This document shows positions 8,226-14,443 of a stretch of 47,975 nucleotides of DNA, piece by piece. Within the stretch, counting starts at the first letter, position 1, and each line of letters begins with the position of its first letter. The stretch lies in NCBI GenBank assembly GCA_022510765.1, contig JAFLSU010000003.1:69508-117482 (forward strand), given 5' to 3'. The notes beneath the pieces were generated by a model. That model saw nothing but the letters and a program-made list of their open reading frames with translations. It searched no databases and was not told the origin of the DNA. Source of the stretch: Christensenellaceae bacterium. Lineage in GTDB: Bacteria; Bacillota; Clostridia; Christensenellales; CAG-138. The translations under genes were made by a program, and so were the position numbers.

Positions 8226-9029
8226 ATGGATAAAAAATCCGAACATAAATGGCGAATGAAGCAGCTACGTCTGCGCTCCAACATCTTTCTGCGCAAAAAC
8301 GGCCTTTACCTTGCGGTGATAGGCAGCCTTGCGGCGCTTGGTGCGGCAGCAGTGTTCATCTTCACCTCCGGCGAGGACATCCCCGATGAACCCGTCAACC
8401 TGCCCAACGACCAGCATCTTTCGGACGTGCAGACGCCCGGCGTCATACAAACGCCCGGTATACCCCACAAAACCGCCGATCCATCTTTAAACATCCCCCC
8501 TGATAACACCCTTGTACCCGATGCGACGGTCACACCGGTGTCATCAGGGACTCCCATGCCTGACTTTACACCGTTCCCGGAGCTTACAGCGGAGCCGGGC
8601 GCAATGCAGCAGAACCTGCAATCGCCCGTTGACGGAAGCATAATAAGAGTGTTTGCTATTAATTCGCTGATCTATTCGGAAACTCTACAGCAATGGATGA
8701 CGCACTCTGGCGTTGATATCGCTTCTCCCAAAGGAAGCGAAGTTCATGCCGTGCTTGACGGGCGCATAGAAAACATATACACGGATGATATGCTCGGCGT
8801 TACCGTCGTGATAAGCCACGAAAACGGAATGATGAGCGTATACGCCAACCTCAGCGAAGATCTGCCCGTAAACATCGGAGACACGGTTTCGGAGCGCGAT
8901 GTCATAGGGTGCATAGGCGATACCGCGATAAGCGAATGCGCCGAGGTAAGCCACCTTCATTTCGAGATCATTGTGAACGGTACGCCCATAGATCCGCAGA
9001 GCCTTATCGTATTCAAAAAAGAGGAATAG
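8226..9029 (+). CDS. spoIIQ: SpoIIQ-like M23 (LytM) family protein
   Basis: A 267-residue bitopic protein: cytoplasmic basic N-terminus, transmembrane helix at about 26-47, a Pro/Thr-rich linker (60-130) and a LytM domain at about 135-262. The zinc ligands appear intact: H160 and D164 in THSGVDI, and HLH at 243-245. The Clostridia-type SpoIIQ keeps these residues, whereas the Bacillus protein lost one. In sporulating cells SpoIIQ from the forespore pairs with SpoIIIAH of the mother cell to hold the engulfing membranes together and build the feeding channel. SpoIIIAH is not in the window. Start has AAGGATG upstream. A generic M23 endopeptidase is the alternative, but the single-pass layout and the forespore-like promoter favour SpoIIQ. 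Ends in TAG. Confidence 0.8.
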   Translation: MDKKSEHKWRMKQLRLRSNIFLRKNGLYLAVIGSLAALGAAAVFIFTSGEDIPDEPVNLPNDQHLSDVQTPGVIQTPGIPHKTADPSLNIPPDNTLVPDATVTPVSSGTPMPDFTPFPELTAEPGAMQQNLQSPVDGSIIRVFAINSLIYSETLQQWMTHSGVDIASPKGSEVHAVLDGRIENIYTDDMLGVTVVISHENGMMSVYANLSEDLPVNIGDTVSERDVIGCIGDTAISECAEVSHLHFEIIVNGTPIDPQSLIVFKKEE

Positions 9030-9305: not shown

Positions 9306-10793
9306 ATGAAACGCATAACCATAATACCGCTTGCGACGCCCGAAACCATGACCACCGAGGTGCGTTCAGCAATCGCGGAATGCACAATGCTGTATTTTCA
9401 AACTGAAAAGCATCCCTGCGCTGCGCCCGCCGTGCTCTTACGACAGGAATCGAAGGCTCTTCCGTATCAAACAATGGATGACTTGTACGACGAATGTGAA
9501 GATTTCGATCAATTGAATGAACGCATTGCTTCTCGCCTTACCTCCGACGAGAAAACGGACGATATTGGCTATGCCGTCCTCGGAAGAGGGGTAAGCCCGG
9601 AACTAATGCGAGAGATCAGGAAGAAAGCGTCGGTGCGGGGCTTTGGTATTAGAGTTCTCGCTTCACAGGGCTTTGCTGAATCCGCTCTTGCCTATGCGGT
9701 CTCTTGCGGAATTATTGAAGGCTCTACCGAGTACAACGTTCGTTCCGCGCGTTCCTTGACTCATGCAGATACCTCGGTTCCACTTGCGATAGAGGAGATC
9801 GATACGCTGCTTCGAGCTGGCGAAGTCAAGCTCACGCTTTCGGATTATTATCCCGACGAACATGATGTGCTGCTTTTTACTTTGAACGGCAGCGCACACT
9901 ATGATTCTGACTGCGTTCGGAGACTTCCGCTATACAAGCTCGATTACCCCGAAAACGCCTATAGGTTTGACGCAGCCACCGTAATGATCGTCCCGCCTTG
10001 CGGACTCATGGAGCGCTCGCGCCATGGACTGTCCGGATTAATGGAAGTAATGCATCGCCTGCGCGCGCCTGGCGGCTGTCCATGGGATGCCGAACAAACG
10101 CACGAAAGCCTGCGTTCTTCTTTGATCGAGGAAGCATACGAGGTTCTCGACGCGATCGACCGTAAAGACACGATTGCGCTCGAAGAAGAGCTTGGGGATC
10201 TGCTGCTGCAGATAGTGTTCCATGCGGCGATTGAACAAGAGCGCTCCGAGTTCACCATGCGCGATGTCACAACCGGAATAGTAAATAAGCTTATTTATCG
10301 CCATCCCCATGTGTTCGGCAGCGTCAAAGTAAACGGTGCCGATGATGTGTTGTATAATTGGGAGAACCTGAAGCAAAAGGAAAAAAGCCAATCCACGGTC
10401 GCAGATGCCATGCACGCGGTTCCCGCCTCATTCCCATCGCTCATACGCAGCTATAAGATACAAAAAAAGGCTGCTCATGTTGGTTTTGACTGGGGTTCCG
10501 CCCTTGAAGCGCTTCCAAAGGTCGAAGAGGAAGCTGCCGAGGTTCGTGACGCCATTATTTCCGGTGATGCGGCCGCGATCAATGAGGAGATCGGAGATCT
10601 GCTATTTGCATGCGTAAATGTTTCAAGGCTGATGAAAGTGGATCCTGAGCTGGCCCTCAAGAGCGCGACCGAAAAATTCATGTCCCGATTCATCCGAATG
10701 GAGCAGTTAATGCTTTCTGAAGGCAGGAAAATTGGCTCAATGAGCCTTTCAGAGATGGACTTATACTGGGAAAGGATAAAAAAGGAGCTTTAA
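9306..10793 (+). CDS. mazG: YabN-type protein: methylase-like domain fused to MazG NTP pyrophosphatase
   Basis: A 495-residue protein. Residues about 240-495 are a MazG nucleoside triphosphate pyrophosphohydrolase (LRAPGGCPWDAEQTHESL, then E276-x2-E279 and E295-x2-D298), with a second MazG-like repeat after about residue 385. MazG clears non-canonical or damaged NTPs. Residues 1-232 correspond to the tetrapyrrole-methylase-like domain of Bacillus YabN (KLTLSDYYPDEHDVLLFT, IVPP at the end), but its SAM-binding parts are altered: the N-terminal glycine loop reads IIPLATPE and the usual YAVPGHP reads YAVLGRG. That domain is probably not a methylase. Start 9306 has AAGGA upstream. HU follows about 160 bp downstream, as is common in Firmicutes. 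Confidence 0.9.
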   Translation: MKRITIIPLATPETMTTEVRSAIAECTMLYFQTEKHPCAAPAVLLRQESKALPYQTMDDLYDECEDFDQLNERIASRLTSDEKTDDIGYAVLGRGVSPELMREIRKKASVRGFGIRVLASQGFAESALAYAVSCGIIEGSTEYNVRSARSLTHADTSVPLAIEEIDTLLRAGEVKLTLSDYYPDEHDVLLFTLNGSAHYDSDCVRRLPLYKLDYPENAYRFDAATVMIVPPCGLMERSRHGLSGLMEVMHRLRAPGGCPWDAEQTHESLRSSLIEEAYEVLDAIDRKDTIALEEELGDLLLQIVFHAAIEQERSEFTMRDVTTGIVNKLIYRHPHVFGSVKVNGADDVLYNWENLKQKEKSQSTVADAMHAVPASFPSLIRSYKIQKKAAHVGFDWGSALEALPKVEEEAAEVRDAIISGDAAAINEEIGDLLFACVNVSRLMKVDPELALKSATEKFMSRFIRMEQLMLSEGRKIGSMSLSEMDLYWERIKKEL

Positions 10794-10952
10794 AATCGCG
10801 AAAAAGCTCAAAATATACCATATTGCTATTGTGTTTTTTGAGTATTGCTGTTAAAATATTAGCCACTGCAATTCAGGGATAATTGTCCTTACGGCAGAAC
10901 ACCGCAGAATTGCTGAAATATTTATGATAATATTATTATGGAGGAACATACG

Positions 10953-11231
10953 ATGAATAAGGCACAGCTCATTGCAGATTTAGCAGGCCAAGGCAAGCTA
11001 TCTCGCAGGGATGCAGATCACGCAGTGAATACCATCTTCAAACTCATGATCGATGAGCTTGAGAGGGGTGAAAAGGTTCAGATCGTCGGCTTCGGTTGCT
11101 TTGAAGTTCGCACGCGGCCCGCAAGGAGGGGACGCAATCCCATGACCGGTGAGTCTATCGATATAGATGAAAGCCGCTCTGTGGCGTTTAGGCCCGGCAA
11201 ATCCCTGAAGGAAGCAATGGACAGGAAATAA
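10953..11231 (+). CDS. hup: HU-family DNA-binding protein
   Basis: A 92-residue histone-like protein of normal length. MNKAQLIADLA, then GFGCFEVRTRPARRGRNP (the DNA-embracing beta arm) and the closing VAFRPGKSLKEAM are diagnostic. HU homodimers bend and compact DNA and act in the nucleoid. The start is the ATG at 10953, 8 bases after GGAGG; the in-frame ATG 15 bases earlier overlaps that site and is rejected. It lies after mazG on the same strand; the 159-bp gap is AT-rich and may hold a separate promoter, but none is clear enough to call. Confidence 0.95.
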   Translation: MNKAQLIADLAGQGKLSRRDADHAVNTIFKLMIDELERGEKVQIVGFGCFEVRTRPARRGRNPMTGESIDIDESRSVAFRPGKSLKEAMDRK

Positions 11232-11308
11232 TTCATTTTCGATTTGATTATTTTCATTGCATTATCCATTTCCTCATAAATTGGGTTCCCCTAATTTCGA
11301 TAAATGAC

Positions 11309-11336
11309 TTGATTTATTGAGATTTAGTGATAAAAT
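11309..11336 (+). promoter_or_regulatory. Sigma-A-type promoter of the ferredoxin gene
   Basis: TTGATT (11309-11314), 16-bp spacer, TAAAAT (11331-11336), about 52 bp before the ferredoxin start codon. Confidence 0.55.
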
Positions 11337-11388
11337 TAGCTTGATTGCAGCATGGCTGCTTCAACATCACATTCAGGAGGTAACAACA

Positions 11389-11559
11389 ATGGCTTATCGT
11401 ATTACTGACGCTTGCATCGCATGCGGCGCATGTGCAGCTGATTGCCCAGTAGGCGCAATCTCAGAGGGTGATGGCAAGTACGAGATCGATCCCGATACCT
11501 GCATTGAGTGCGGCCTTTGTGCAGGCACCTGCCCGGTAGCTGCCCCCACCAACGACTAA
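11389..11559 (+). CDS. 2[4Fe-4S] ferredoxin, clostridial type
   Basis: A 56-residue protein with two complete cluster motifs, CIACGACAADCP and CIECGLCAGTCP, matching the classic clostridial bacterial ferredoxin in length and spacing. It is a small soluble low-potential electron carrier, typical of anaerobes using pyruvate:ferredoxin oxidoreductase and hydrogenase. AGGAGG lies 8 bases before the ATG. It has its own promoter and a strong terminator, so it appears to be a single-gene transcript. The start is well supported because the motif begins within the first ten residues. Confidence 0.95.
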   Translation: MAYRITDACIACGACAADCPVGAISEGDGKYEIDPDTCIECGLCAGTCPVAAPTND

Positions 11560-11579
11560 TCCGTTTTTAGTAACCAAAA

Positions 11580-11607
11580 GGGATGGCCTTTGACCATCCC
11601 ATTTTTG
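11580..11607 (+). terminator. Intrinsic terminator after ferredoxin (possibly bidirectional)
   Basis: GGGATGG and CCATCCC form a perfect 7-bp stem, loop CCTTTGA, followed by ATTTTTG. AAAA precedes the left arm, so it could also serve the convergent radC-like gene. Confidence 0.85.
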
Positions 11608-11720
11608 TTTACGCACGTTTTTAAACTAACATGACCTTTTTCAGTGTATTTCTTTGATTCGACTATAAAACGCAGATAGGCTATGCCGATACAGTTTTCC
11701 TCATACCGATTTTCGTTAAT

Positions 11721-13265
11721 TTATGCGGAGAAGGTTTCCCTTGCCTCATTCGAATCCTTTTGATTCTGAACGGACTGCCGCTGCGAATCATATCCGCTCA
11801 ATTCGGAATTTGGATATATCATTTGTTTTTCATATTTTCGTATTATAGCATAGCATTTCGGGAAGGAAACGATGATATGATCAAGCAGTTTCACATCCAT
11901 ATTTAAAAGAATGCTCTGTACTCGTTCGGTGTTGTTTATGTCGCTTACTGACGGAAGGTGATTTCCCGAGGGATGATTATGTGCAAGCACTATTGCGGTT
12001 GCGCTGTGCTCAAGGGCGATCTCAACAATCCGCCTTGGCAAAAACGGTACTTCACCGGGCGTACCCCTGCTTATCATCTCGTAATGCAACACCTTATTGG
12101 TTTCATTAAGGCAAACTATGAAAACATGCTCATCTTTTGATTTTGATAGCAGATAAAAGCAAAACATTATCACATCGTCTATGCTGTCAAGCGATTTGCC
12201 AACGAGCCGCAGACGCTTAGAAAACATGCCTATATCGTTCGTGAGACACAGAAGCGTTGCGGCGTTTTGTGAAAGTCCAAATTTTATCAGTTCATTATAG
12301 CTTGCATTTATAACGCCGTGTAGCGACCCAAACTTTGCAATTAGCTTTTGTGCGGAAGGGTTAGCGTCACTCCTTGTCGCATAAGAAAGCAATAATTCAA
12401 GCGCCTCATTCTCATTAAATCCTGCAAGGCCATTCTTTATATAGGCATCTCTCAGTCTCGCTATTTTACTGCGCGCCGACTCACGTTCATTTAATTGGAA
12501 GATATTATTATCTGCACATTGATGTTGTACATGAGAAAGCTGCGAAATGCGTCCGTTCGATTTGTAATTCGGATAAATCATTTCTTTTTCGTAGCTTCGC
12601 ATGATAGCATAACATTTGTGATTAGAAACAATAATATGCTCACGCAGTTCCACACCTACTTCTAAAAGAGAACTCTGTACGCGCTTGGTATTGCCTATGT
12701 CATCTGGCAATGGAAGATGATTTCCAGATAAGTGATTATGGGCAAGCACTATTGCGGTTGCCCCATTAGCAAGCGCGATCTCCGCTATACGCCTTGGTGT
12801 AATCGCCGCTTCACCCGACGTGCCTCTGAGTGCAATCTCGTGATGCAGTATCTTCCCGACCGCATTAAGACAAACGATGCAAACACGCCTGTCCTTATAC
12901 TCATGTAATGCGTCGAAACAAAACTCCATAGCGTTATCGGTAGTGGTTAATGACTTGTCAATGAACCGAAATTGATCGAAAAACTCGCCAATTTCATTTA
13001 TCATGCGAATAAACGCTGCGGTATTCTCCGAGCGACCGGACTTTGTAAGTTCATTGTGGCTTGCATTAAGGACATCGTAAAGTGATCCGAATTTATCAAT
13101 AAGCTTGTGTGCAATAGGATTGGTATCCTGCCTCGGTATAGCATAGAAAAGCAATAATTCAAGCGCCTGATGCTCATGAAATCCATCAAGCCCCTTCTTT
13201 AAGTAAGTATCCTTCAGTCGTTTCCTATGTCCGCTGTGAACACCATCTTCTTTGCCGCCGCTCAT
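11721..13265 (-). CDS. Tandem double RadC-like protein (two JAB/MPN units)
   Basis: A 514-residue protein made of two complete RadC-like units, residues about 10-232 and 262-486, offset by about 253 residues. Each has a helix-hairpin-helix-like N-terminal part (QALELLLFYAIPRQDTNP and EALELLLSYATRSDANP) and a JAB metallo domain. H-x-H-x10-D is kept in both: H176/H178/D189 and H429/H431/D442. HNHLSG in unit 1 replaces the standard HNHPSG of unit 2. Family RadC proteins are about 220-240 residues with one unit. RadC function is unsettled; the fold suggests a metal-dependent hydrolase, and no repair role is proven. The units differ clearly, so the duplication is not recent. ATG at 13265 with a short AAGG site. 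It lies just downstream of the aldolase gene (28 bp). Confidence 0.85.
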   Translation of the reverse strand: MSGGKEDGVHSGHRKRLKDTYLKKGLDGFHEHQALELLLFYAIPRQDTNPIAHKLIDKFGSLYDVLNASHNELTKSGRSENTAAFIRMINEIGEFFDQFRFIDKSLTTTDNAMEFCFDALHEYKDRRVCIVCLNAVGKILHHEIALRGTSGEAAITPRRIAEIALANGATAIVLAHNHLSGNHLPLPDDIGNTKRVQSSLLEVGVELREHIIVSNHKCYAIMRSYEKEMIYPNYKSNGRISQLSHVQHQCADNNIFQLNERESARSKIARLRDAYIKNGLAGFNENEALELLLSYATRSDANPSAQKLIAKFGSLHGVINASYNELIKFGLSQNAATLLCLTNDIGMFSKRLRLVGKSLDSIDDVIMFCFYLLSKSKDEHVFIVCLNETNKVLHYEMISRGTPGEVPFLPRRIVEIALEHSATAIVLAHNHPSGNHLPSVSDINNTERVQSILLNMDVKLLDHIIVSFPKCYAIIRKYEKQMIYPNSELSGYDSQRQSVQNQKDSNEARETFSA

Positions 13266-13293: not shown

Positions 13294-13941
13294 TTAATCA
13301 TTTTTCTGCATCGATCTGTTACTGTACTCCCGGGCAATCCGCTCAATTTCAGAAAAACGCCCATCCGCTATCATATCCGTCTTGAAAAGCCCAGAGCTTA
13401 TTCCAAAAGCGCAGGCACCAGCAGCGGCAAAATCCGCAAGATTGCTAAGCGTTATACCTGCGACCGCAGCAAGCCTGATGTTCGGAAGCGGCGAGCGCAG
13501 GGCTTTAAAATACTTGGCTCCAAGAAGTCCAGCGGGAAACACCTTAACTATATCCGCTCCAAGCTTATGTGCCGTCACTATCTCCGTGGGGGTCATTGCT
13601 CCCGGTATCGAAACGAGTCCCAGTTTCTTCGTGGCTGATATGATCTCCTGATCGGTATTCGGAGAAACGATATACGAAGCACCGCATGAATGAGCGCATT
13701 CAAGCTGTTCAAGCGTAAGCACCGTCCCCGCTCCGATTGCCATGCGTCCATAGAATCGTTCAGAAAGAGCTTTGATCGAATCAGCGGTCATCTCCAACCC
13801 CTTATCCTGCTCAAAAGTTACCTCAACGGCGCGTATTCCTGCTCTATAGAGTGCCTCAACGGAGCCAATCAGGTTTTCATTATAATTACCTCGCGATATA
13901 GCGATGATCTTTGTATCAAGAATTGTACTTAATGCATCCAT
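13294..13941 (-). CDS. eda: KDPG/KHG aldolase
   Basis: A 215-residue class I aldolase (2-keto-3-deoxy-6-phosphogluconate / 4-hydroxy-2-oxoglutarate). It would cleave KDPG to pyruvate and glyceraldehyde 3-phosphate, often in hexuronate catabolism. Motifs: AVEVTFE, GAGTVL, SPNTD, the Schiff-base lysine K133 in DIVKVFPAG, PGAMTPTE, and AVAGITLSN. No KDG kinase or uronate genes are near, so the pathway is not shown here. Start choice: ATG 13941 is used; ATG 13953 is in frame, and both lie close to AAAGGA and GGGA sequences. The gene follows trmL by about 40 bp on the same strand. Confidence 0.9.
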   Translation of the reverse strand: MDALSTILDTKIIAISRGNYNENLIGSVEALYRAGIRAVEVTFEQDKGLEMTADSIKALSERFYGRMAIGAGTVLTLEQLECAHSCGASYIVSPNTDQEIISATKKLGLVSIPGAMTPTEIVTAHKLGADIVKVFPAGLLGAKYFKALRSPLPNIRLAAVAGITLSNLADFAAAGACAFGISSGLFKTDMIADGRFSEIERIAREYSNRSMQKND

Positions 13942-13981
13942 GTCGATTCCCATTCCTTTTGCTTCAAATATATCATTATTG

Positions 13982-14443
13982 TCATTCAAGTCCACTAAAC
14001 CCATTCTGTCTTAAGGCCTCATATACTACTATCGCGACCGAATTTGACAAATTGAGCGATCTTAACTGCGGACGCATCGGTATGCGGATAGCGTCCCTAC
14101 TTCTCCGCGAGAGCAACTCCGCCCCCAGCCCTGCCGTCTCCTTGCCGAAAACGAGGAAATCACCCGGATGAAATTCCGTCTCAGCATAACTCTTTGTTGC
14201 ATGAGTGGAGAGCAGCCAAAACCTTGCATTGGGATAGCATGTTTCCAGTTCCTCAAAGCTATCGTAATAGCTTATCTCAAGTTCTCCCCAATAATCAAGT
14301 CCCGCGCGCTTTAAATATCTGTCATCCACCGAAAACCCCAGCGGACGCACAAGATGCAGCTTGCAGCCTGTAACAGCGCAAGTTCTTGATATATTACCCG
14401 TATTCTGTGGTATTTCAGGCTGTACCAAAACTATGTTAAACAT
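13982..14443 (-). CDS. trmL: tRNA (cytidine/uridine-34-2'-O)-methyltransferase TrmL
   Basis: A 153-residue SPOUT (trefoil-knot) methyltransferase of normal TrmL length. Motifs: NIVLVQPEIPQNTGNISRTC, LHLVRPLGF, RAGLDYWG, FGKETAGLG and IPMRPQLRSLNLSNSVAIV with the C-terminal YEALRQNGF. It uses SAM to methylate the ribose of wobble position 34 in tRNA-Leu isoacceptors. It reads from an ATG at 14443 and lies between the aldolase and the sugar-nucleotide gene, separated from the latter by a hairpin terminator. Confidence 0.95.
   Translation of the reverse strand: MFNIVLVQPEIPQNTGNISRTCAVTGCKLHLVRPLGFSVDDRYLKRAGLDYWGELEISYYDSFEELETCYPNARFWLLSTHATKSYAETEFHPGDFLVFGKETAGLGAELLSRRSRDAIRIPMRPQLRSLNLSNSVAIVVYEALRQNGFSGLE

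Follow-up and report, generated by a model that had tools for sequence, protein, structure and literature searches.

The closest described counterparts of the protein discussed here are the RadC proteins themselves and the eukaryotic-type pairs of MPN+ and MPN- subunits, in which the MPN- subunit is reported to bind and stimulate the MPN+ enzyme, as CSN6 does with CSN5 (PMC4140821). The JAMM motif that makes such a domain active is given in one account (PMC300881) as E...H-S/T-H-x7-S-x2-D and comprises metal ligands, a Glu for which acid-base catalysis is proposed, and a Ser suggested to stabilise the intermediate; according to the same account the Csn5 substitutions E56A and S128A abolish deneddylation. 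For the JAB domains of RadC it has been argued from domain context that they act on nucleic acids or nucleotides and not on peptides (PMC5512222, PMC3482391), and according to a review on DinG the folds nearest to a RadC-like domain are those of metalloproteases rather than nucleases (PMC11981726).

The window analysed here, a stretch of 47,975 nucleotides from the genome of a Christensenellaceae bacterium, contains a RadC gene that the initial annotation had described as two diverged RadC units in one frame. This description is borne out by a single minus-strand open reading frame of 514 amino acids with two PF04002 stretches, by an offset of 253 residues between the starts of the HxH motifs of the two units, and by 54% identity between the halves (247 aligned residues). 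The parts of the gene and its two upstream neighbours are the following:

11721 to 13265, minus strand: fused tandem RadC gene, 514 amino acids, two units in one frame (open reading frame and translation, two PF04002 stretches)
12966 to 13265, minus strand: N-domain of unit 1, residues 1-100, with H10, H13, R14, H32 and H53 (conservation over 33 family relatives; helices in the model)
12603 to 12947, minus strand: JAB domain of unit 1, residues 107-221, with H176, H178 and D189 kept, Arg126 in place of the JAMM Glu and Leu186 in place of the JAMM Ser (PF04002 match; residue counts over 113 relatives)
12492 to 12581, minus strand: linker, residues 229-258, predicted to be disordered (pLDDT under 50; pairwise alignment)
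12204 to 12491, minus strand: N-domain of unit 2, residues 259-354, with the five conserved His/Arg residues now A, K, I, N and Q (conservation; helices in the full-length model)
11850 to 12188, minus strand: JAB domain of unit 2, residues 360-472, with E379, H429, H431, S439 and D442 all kept (PF04002 match; residue counts)
13294 to 14004, minus strand: KDPG/KHG aldolase gene, upstream neighbour of the fused RadC gene (PF01081; also next to radC in 9 of 10 congeners)
13982 to 14443, minus strand: gene of a SpoU-family rRNA/tRNA methylase, here called trmL, overlapping the aldolase gene (PF00588; position shared by 9 of 10 congeners)

In the profile search both units exceed the PF04002 cut-off of 22.1 bits (82.4 and 110.8 bits; whole-protein E 1.3e-55), and the fused RadC is the only PF04002 match in its genome. 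Both halves also match the full-length RadC models TIGR00608 and NF000642; the whole protein scores 210.6 and 240.4 bits against cut-offs of 133.85 and 180, respectively, and the halves alone remain below these cut-offs (97.2 and 117.8 bits for TIGR00608, 109.7 and 135.0 bits for NF000642). PF20582 (UPF0758_N / HhH) gives a sub-cut-off match to the N-part of unit 2 (13.5 bits, E 0.077) and no match in unit 1, the N-part being helical in the models. For the comparisons of the halves, unit 1 was taken as residues 1-248 and unit 2 as residues 249-514. On the DNA level, direct repeats (300 nt and 88 nt) are spaced by 759-762 nt, which is the repeat period of the gene. In the pairwise alignment the first part of the linker resembles the C-terminal tail of unit 2 itself, and since the linker thus begins as a copy of that tail, the duplicated stretch would have been nearly the whole gene, with the fusion point near its end. 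A terminator-like hairpin (window positions 11580-11600, both strands) lies between a ferredoxin-like gene and the RadC gene; the number of such hairpins in the region is not above that in shuffled sequences.

The fused gene belongs to an operon with the order trmL - KDPG aldolase - radC on one strand, and nine of the ten congeners carry these genes in identical order with a single radC. The tenth, the sister species G001, has one full radC elsewhere and three JAB-only paralogues, and its trmL and aldolase genes are followed by an open reading frame of 419 amino acids that we read by eye as glyA. An encoding by two genes in close relatives, which the initial annotation had raised as the alternative to a genuine fusion, is hence not found, since none of the congeners has two adjacent copies. 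Because the same gene order with a single radC is present in nine of the ten, the fused gene is the product of an in-place, lineage-specific tandem duplication and fusion of a single radC. When G001 and G009, a near-duplicate of G005, are left out of the comparison, the methylase is 74-82% identical to that of its relatives (congener mean among themselves 82.1%) and the aldolase 53-60% (mean 61.3%), whereas the RadC units share 35-44% identity with the RadC proteins of the congeners, for which the average is 58.8%. The methylase and the aldolase have therefore diverged about as they have among the congeners and RadC far more, which indicates that of the three genes RadC alone has sped up in this lineage.

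In the trees, the two units and the RadC of G001 form a group (99/99; 100/99 without five long-branch rows) that under midpoint rooting is sister to the nine single-copy RadC proteins of the other congeners, units and congeners together being one group (95/81). A tree in which the units join these nine and G001 stays outside can be rejected (p-AU 0.02). The best tree joins unit 2 to the RadC of G001 (96/67), yet a clade of the two units is not rejected (p-AU 0.26), and G001 is a long branch. The trees fit vertical descent with a duplication in the line leading to the host genome and G001; by the p-AU of 0.26, this duplication may either predate or follow the divergence from G001. Lateral transfer or replacement of RadC is not favoured, as the grouping with G001 matches the topA+trmL tree of ten genomes, in which the host genome pairs with G001 as well (100/99).

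The three JAB-only paralogues of G001 lie at loci L195, L196 and L197. Those at L195 and L196 have neighbours that by eye resemble phage genes, and these two loci share long DNA stretches. L197 contains, at 10754-11900, a CRISPR-like array with a repeat of about 33 nt and a period of 66-69 nt. Two of its inter-repeat stretches (11302-11337 and 11574-11608) are exact matches to positions 8540-8575 and 8930-8964 of L196, and would thus be apparent spacers against an element with a JAB-only gene in that very genome.

But how rare is such a fusion? RadC is present in 93 of 103 genomes of the family, 352 of 396 of the order and 296 of 299 of the phylum. By frame length and match layout there is no other fused tandem in the 103 family genomes, the sole other frame above 500 amino acids (G044) containing one unit. 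In the order, 17 of the 396 genomes, the host genome included, have at least two matches at E 1e-15; in the other 16 these are separate genes, and no other fused tandem is found among the matches listed (about 150 places), where the long frames of G237, G390, G118 and G167 hold one unit each. Besides the host genome, 50 of the 299 phylum genomes have at least two matches at E 1e-12, and none has two in one frame; a second unit weaker than these thresholds in the order or the phylum would escape the search. From plasmids and phages, the best 15 of 2130 and the best 15 of 39 records span one unit each and contain no tandem, and the best 80 viral contigs have mostly JAB-only matches. Among 318 scanned loci, a frame with two HxH[PLT]..D motifs occurs only in L001, L002 and L017, all of which are this fused gene; 292 of the 318 carry the motif at least once in a frame longer than 90 amino acids. 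Finally, exact peptide patterns confirm no close relative of the double protein in the genome contig collection, and none of the papers listed from the PMC literature reports a tandem RadC. The earlier judgement that a RadC pseudo-dimer is unusual thus stands for the family and phylum genomes and for the matches listed from the order. A RadC match at G207:C10:89541-89885 reads through one in-frame TGA, and that gene may be broken.

The H-x-H-x10-D metal motif is kept in both units, as is seen in the translation and in the motif scan and as the initial annotation had stated. Its claim of two intact JAB sites does not survive, since unit 1 lacks both the JAMM Glu (Arg126) and the JAMM Ser (Leu186). 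Both sites looked intact at first because the pattern covers neither residue and so omits two of the five of the JAMM motif. Among the relatives, 112 of 113 have the Glu and all 113 the Ser, both of which lie outside the patterns used to fetch sequences and at both of which all 33 family rows agree. Unit 2 keeps the complete motif (E, H, H, S, D); in unit 1 only H, H and D are left. Unit 1 in addition has Leu179 where the HNHPSG motif has its Pro (conserved in 111 of 113 relatives, a count that is biased, as are all counts at these residues, by 80 rows fetched with the HNHPSG and D-x-NPxAH patterns), and in its N-part one Arg where all 113 relatives have V, I, L, M, A, F or C. Position 126 is the start of the first strand of the model (126-133), in keeping with the published placement of the Glu of RadC-like domains at the N-terminal end of their first strand (PMC11981726); the solved RadC structure 2qlc has a Glu at the aligned place. 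The residue counts leave out L013 (another type of RadC, from G006), L014-L016 (the JAB-only genes of G001) and the duplicate loci L018-L022 and L043. Taken together, the JAB domain of unit 1 is probably inactive; it may coordinate metal and would not be expected to act as a catalyst.

The N-domains differ in the reverse sense. Of five conserved residues, H10, H13, R14 and H53 (unit 1 numbering) are kept in 33 of 33 family relatives and H32 in 32 of 33; unit 1 has all five, and unit 2 has A, K, I, N and Q at these places. At columns at least 90% conserved in the 33 family relatives, unit 1 departs at one position in the N-part and five in the JAB domain and unit 2 at five and one (Fisher p = 0.08); at columns at least 80% conserved the departures are two and five for unit 1 and nine and two for unit 2 (p = 0.049). 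The same test gives p = 0.23 over the 113 relatives and p = 0.30 with genus-invariant columns only, for which L005, a near-duplicate of L004, was dropped as well. With p ranging from 0.049 to 0.30, the reciprocal pattern of loss, in the JAB domain of unit 1 versus the N-domain of unit 2, is therefore suggestive rather than significant. Moreover, the HxGHR motif marks a subgroup of RadC and not all RadC proteins, being absent from the second RadC of congener G006, so that its loss from unit 2 need not mean lost function. That second RadC, of a different type, is located at a contig end (G006:C44:6017-6271, L013). Split activities, which the initial annotation had offered as one possibility, come nearer to the evidence than two active sites, the catalytic residues being left in unit 2 alone and the conserved N-domain residues in unit 1 alone, although not with the two intact sites that it had assumed.

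Between the halves dN/dS is 0.21 (0.13 for the N-part and 0.27 to 0.32 for the JAB domain by two methods), at a dS of about 1.4, which is near saturation. In a crude simulation of unconstrained change (n=2000), no stop arose in 11.6%, 2.6%, 0.2% and 0% of the runs when the substitutions per site were set to 0.1, 0.2, 0.35 and 0.7, respectively; because any stop in unit 1 would cost the protein unit 2 as well, the simulation bears on the frame rather more than on unit 1. Both units are predicted to fold completely. AlphaFold models unit 1 with a mean pLDDT of 88.8 (62-sequence alignment) and the full protein, with an alignment that covered unit 1 only, at a pLDDT of 78.6 and a pTM of 0.60, as two complete units with a disordered linker at residues 229-258. 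The best solved match of the unit 1 model in Foldseek is 2qlc, the RadC of Chlorobium tepidum.

A related arrangement is found in genus g53 of another family (f28) of the same order, where 5 of 81 genomes contain adjacent two-gene RadC pairs (L228-L232, from G893, G902, G172, G221 and G427). Each of the five pairs combines a gene that has an intact JAMM motif and neither HxGHR nor the AH histidine with a partner that keeps HxGHR and AH; the JAMM Ser of the partner is lost in two of the five (to Thr and Asn) and its Glu is kept in all. These pairs are a partial parallel and the best support for a RadC pair with separable functions.

The fusion, its orthologous position, the residue losses and the maintained reading frame are directly observed. 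As their best explanation we propose that the fused RadC is a covalent pseudo-heterodimer with divided labour in the manner of the MPN+/MPN- pairs, a reading to which we assign a probability of about 0.45 and of which dimerisation and function are the parts that we infer. A single chromosomal radC would have been duplicated in tandem within the operon and the copies fused end to end, after which they would have decayed in complementary places, unit 1 in its JAB domain and unit 2 in its N-domain. Unit 2 would then supply the metal-dependent hydrolytic site, the only one of the protein, and unit 1 an N-domain and a catalytically silent JAB partner. The units would contact each other, and the N-domain of one would serve the active site of the other. 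We count in favour of the pseudo-heterodimer the two units in one frame, the gene order and the trees, the JAMM motif of unit 2 alone, the N-domain residues of unit 1 alone, the reported effects of the Csn5 substitutions and of MPN- subunits on their partners, the dN/dS of 0.21, the predicted folds and the g53 pairs; we count against it the weak Fisher p values, the less than universal HxGHR motif, the disordered linker with a pTM of 0.60 in a model whose alignment covered unit 1 only, the loss of the Ser in only two of the five g53 pairs and of the Glu in none, and the restriction to one species. The covalent RadC pseudo-dimer of the initial annotation is accordingly right in its anatomy, two units in one chain, and in its rarity, and wrong in its two intact sites.

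Could unit 1 instead be a passenger, a dead duplicate that slowly decays and is kept in frame ahead of a unit 2 that carries out the RadC function unaided? If unit 2 acted by itself, it should have retained the conserved N-domain residues that it is now without, and a dead copy sits poorly with a dN/dS of 0.21 between the halves and with the N-domain residues, the metal ligands and the confidently predicted fold that unit 1 retains. Then again, the catalytic residues of unit 1 are lost, RadC has diverged faster than its neighbours at the locus, and the open frame alone is no proof that unit 1 is used, as a stop or frameshift in it would remove unit 2 too. On balance we regard this explanation as somewhat unlikely. 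The retention of metal ligands in unit 1 together with the loss of Glu and Ser, and the strong divergence of both units from their relatives, might also mean that unit 1 has gained a new role, for instance as a non-hydrolytic binder of a ligand, of DNA or of a partner by way of its metal site, a role unrelated to the activity of unit 2; there is, however, no new domain or neighbour and no sign of a new function, which makes such a role distinctly improbable. Near to the view of the initial annotation is the proposal of two active JAB sites, with the fusion increasing gene dosage or tethering two similar enzymes to each other. The H-x-H-x10-D motif of each unit speaks for it, but unit 1 has neither the JAMM Glu nor the JAMM Ser, and alanine at either is reported to abolish Csn5 activity (PMC300881). 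A different mechanism may operate in unit 1, the chemistry of RadC not being established, and even so we consider two active sites very unlikely. That two copies or genes were wrongly joined in assembly, a concern which the initial annotation had voiced about the junction and which a draft genome in 58 contigs invites, is scarcely credible for diverged, 54%-identical and not near-identical copies joined in one open frame by a linker that begins as a copy of unit 2's tail, inside a 117-kb contig with orthologous gene order upstream, in a genome with no other RadC, and with both halves placed by the tree beside the RadC of the sister species. We take the gene to be genuine: a rare RadC fusion, specific to this lineage, in which one JAB domain is probably disabled.

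The pseudo-heterodimer can be extended to a more far-reaching suggestion, which we put forward as a doubtful one: that this RadC subfamily is an obligate dimer, the N-domain of one protomer serving the JAMM site of the other, and that the arrangement is here frozen in one chain, with one half donating the N-domain, the other the active site, and neither functional by itself. If true, nature would have dissected RadC in this gene, which would also be the bacterial counterpart, in a single chain, of the MPN+/MPN- pairs. RadC is widespread and poorly understood, and a variant that seemingly sorts N-domain and active site by half makes a vague question testable. Which half needs which domain, and does RadC act in trans as a dimer?

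Compared with the RadC family, as represented by 2qlc, each half of the fused protein is a complete unit of an N-part modelled as helical and a JAB domain, and the JAMM motif of unit 2 is full; the fused protein differs in having two units per chain, of which unit 1 is without the JAMM Glu and Ser and unit 2 without the conserved N-domain residues. With the single radC genes of its congeners it shares the orthologous position and the same neighbours, whereas their RadC is one unit that combines the N-domain and the JAMM residues. Like the g53 pairs it consists of tandem RadC copies of which only one has HxGHR and the AH histidine; different from it, those are separate genes in another family, in the opposite order, and never lose the Glu. 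Finally, the MPN+/MPN- pairs CSN5/CSN6 and Rpn11/Rpn8 are separate chains in large complexes that act on ubiquitin-like protein substrates, whereas here a RadC-type JAB protein forms one bacterial chain with a presumed contact between its units; like these pairs, the fused RadC combines one JAMM-competent with one JAMM-deficient MPN/JAB domain.
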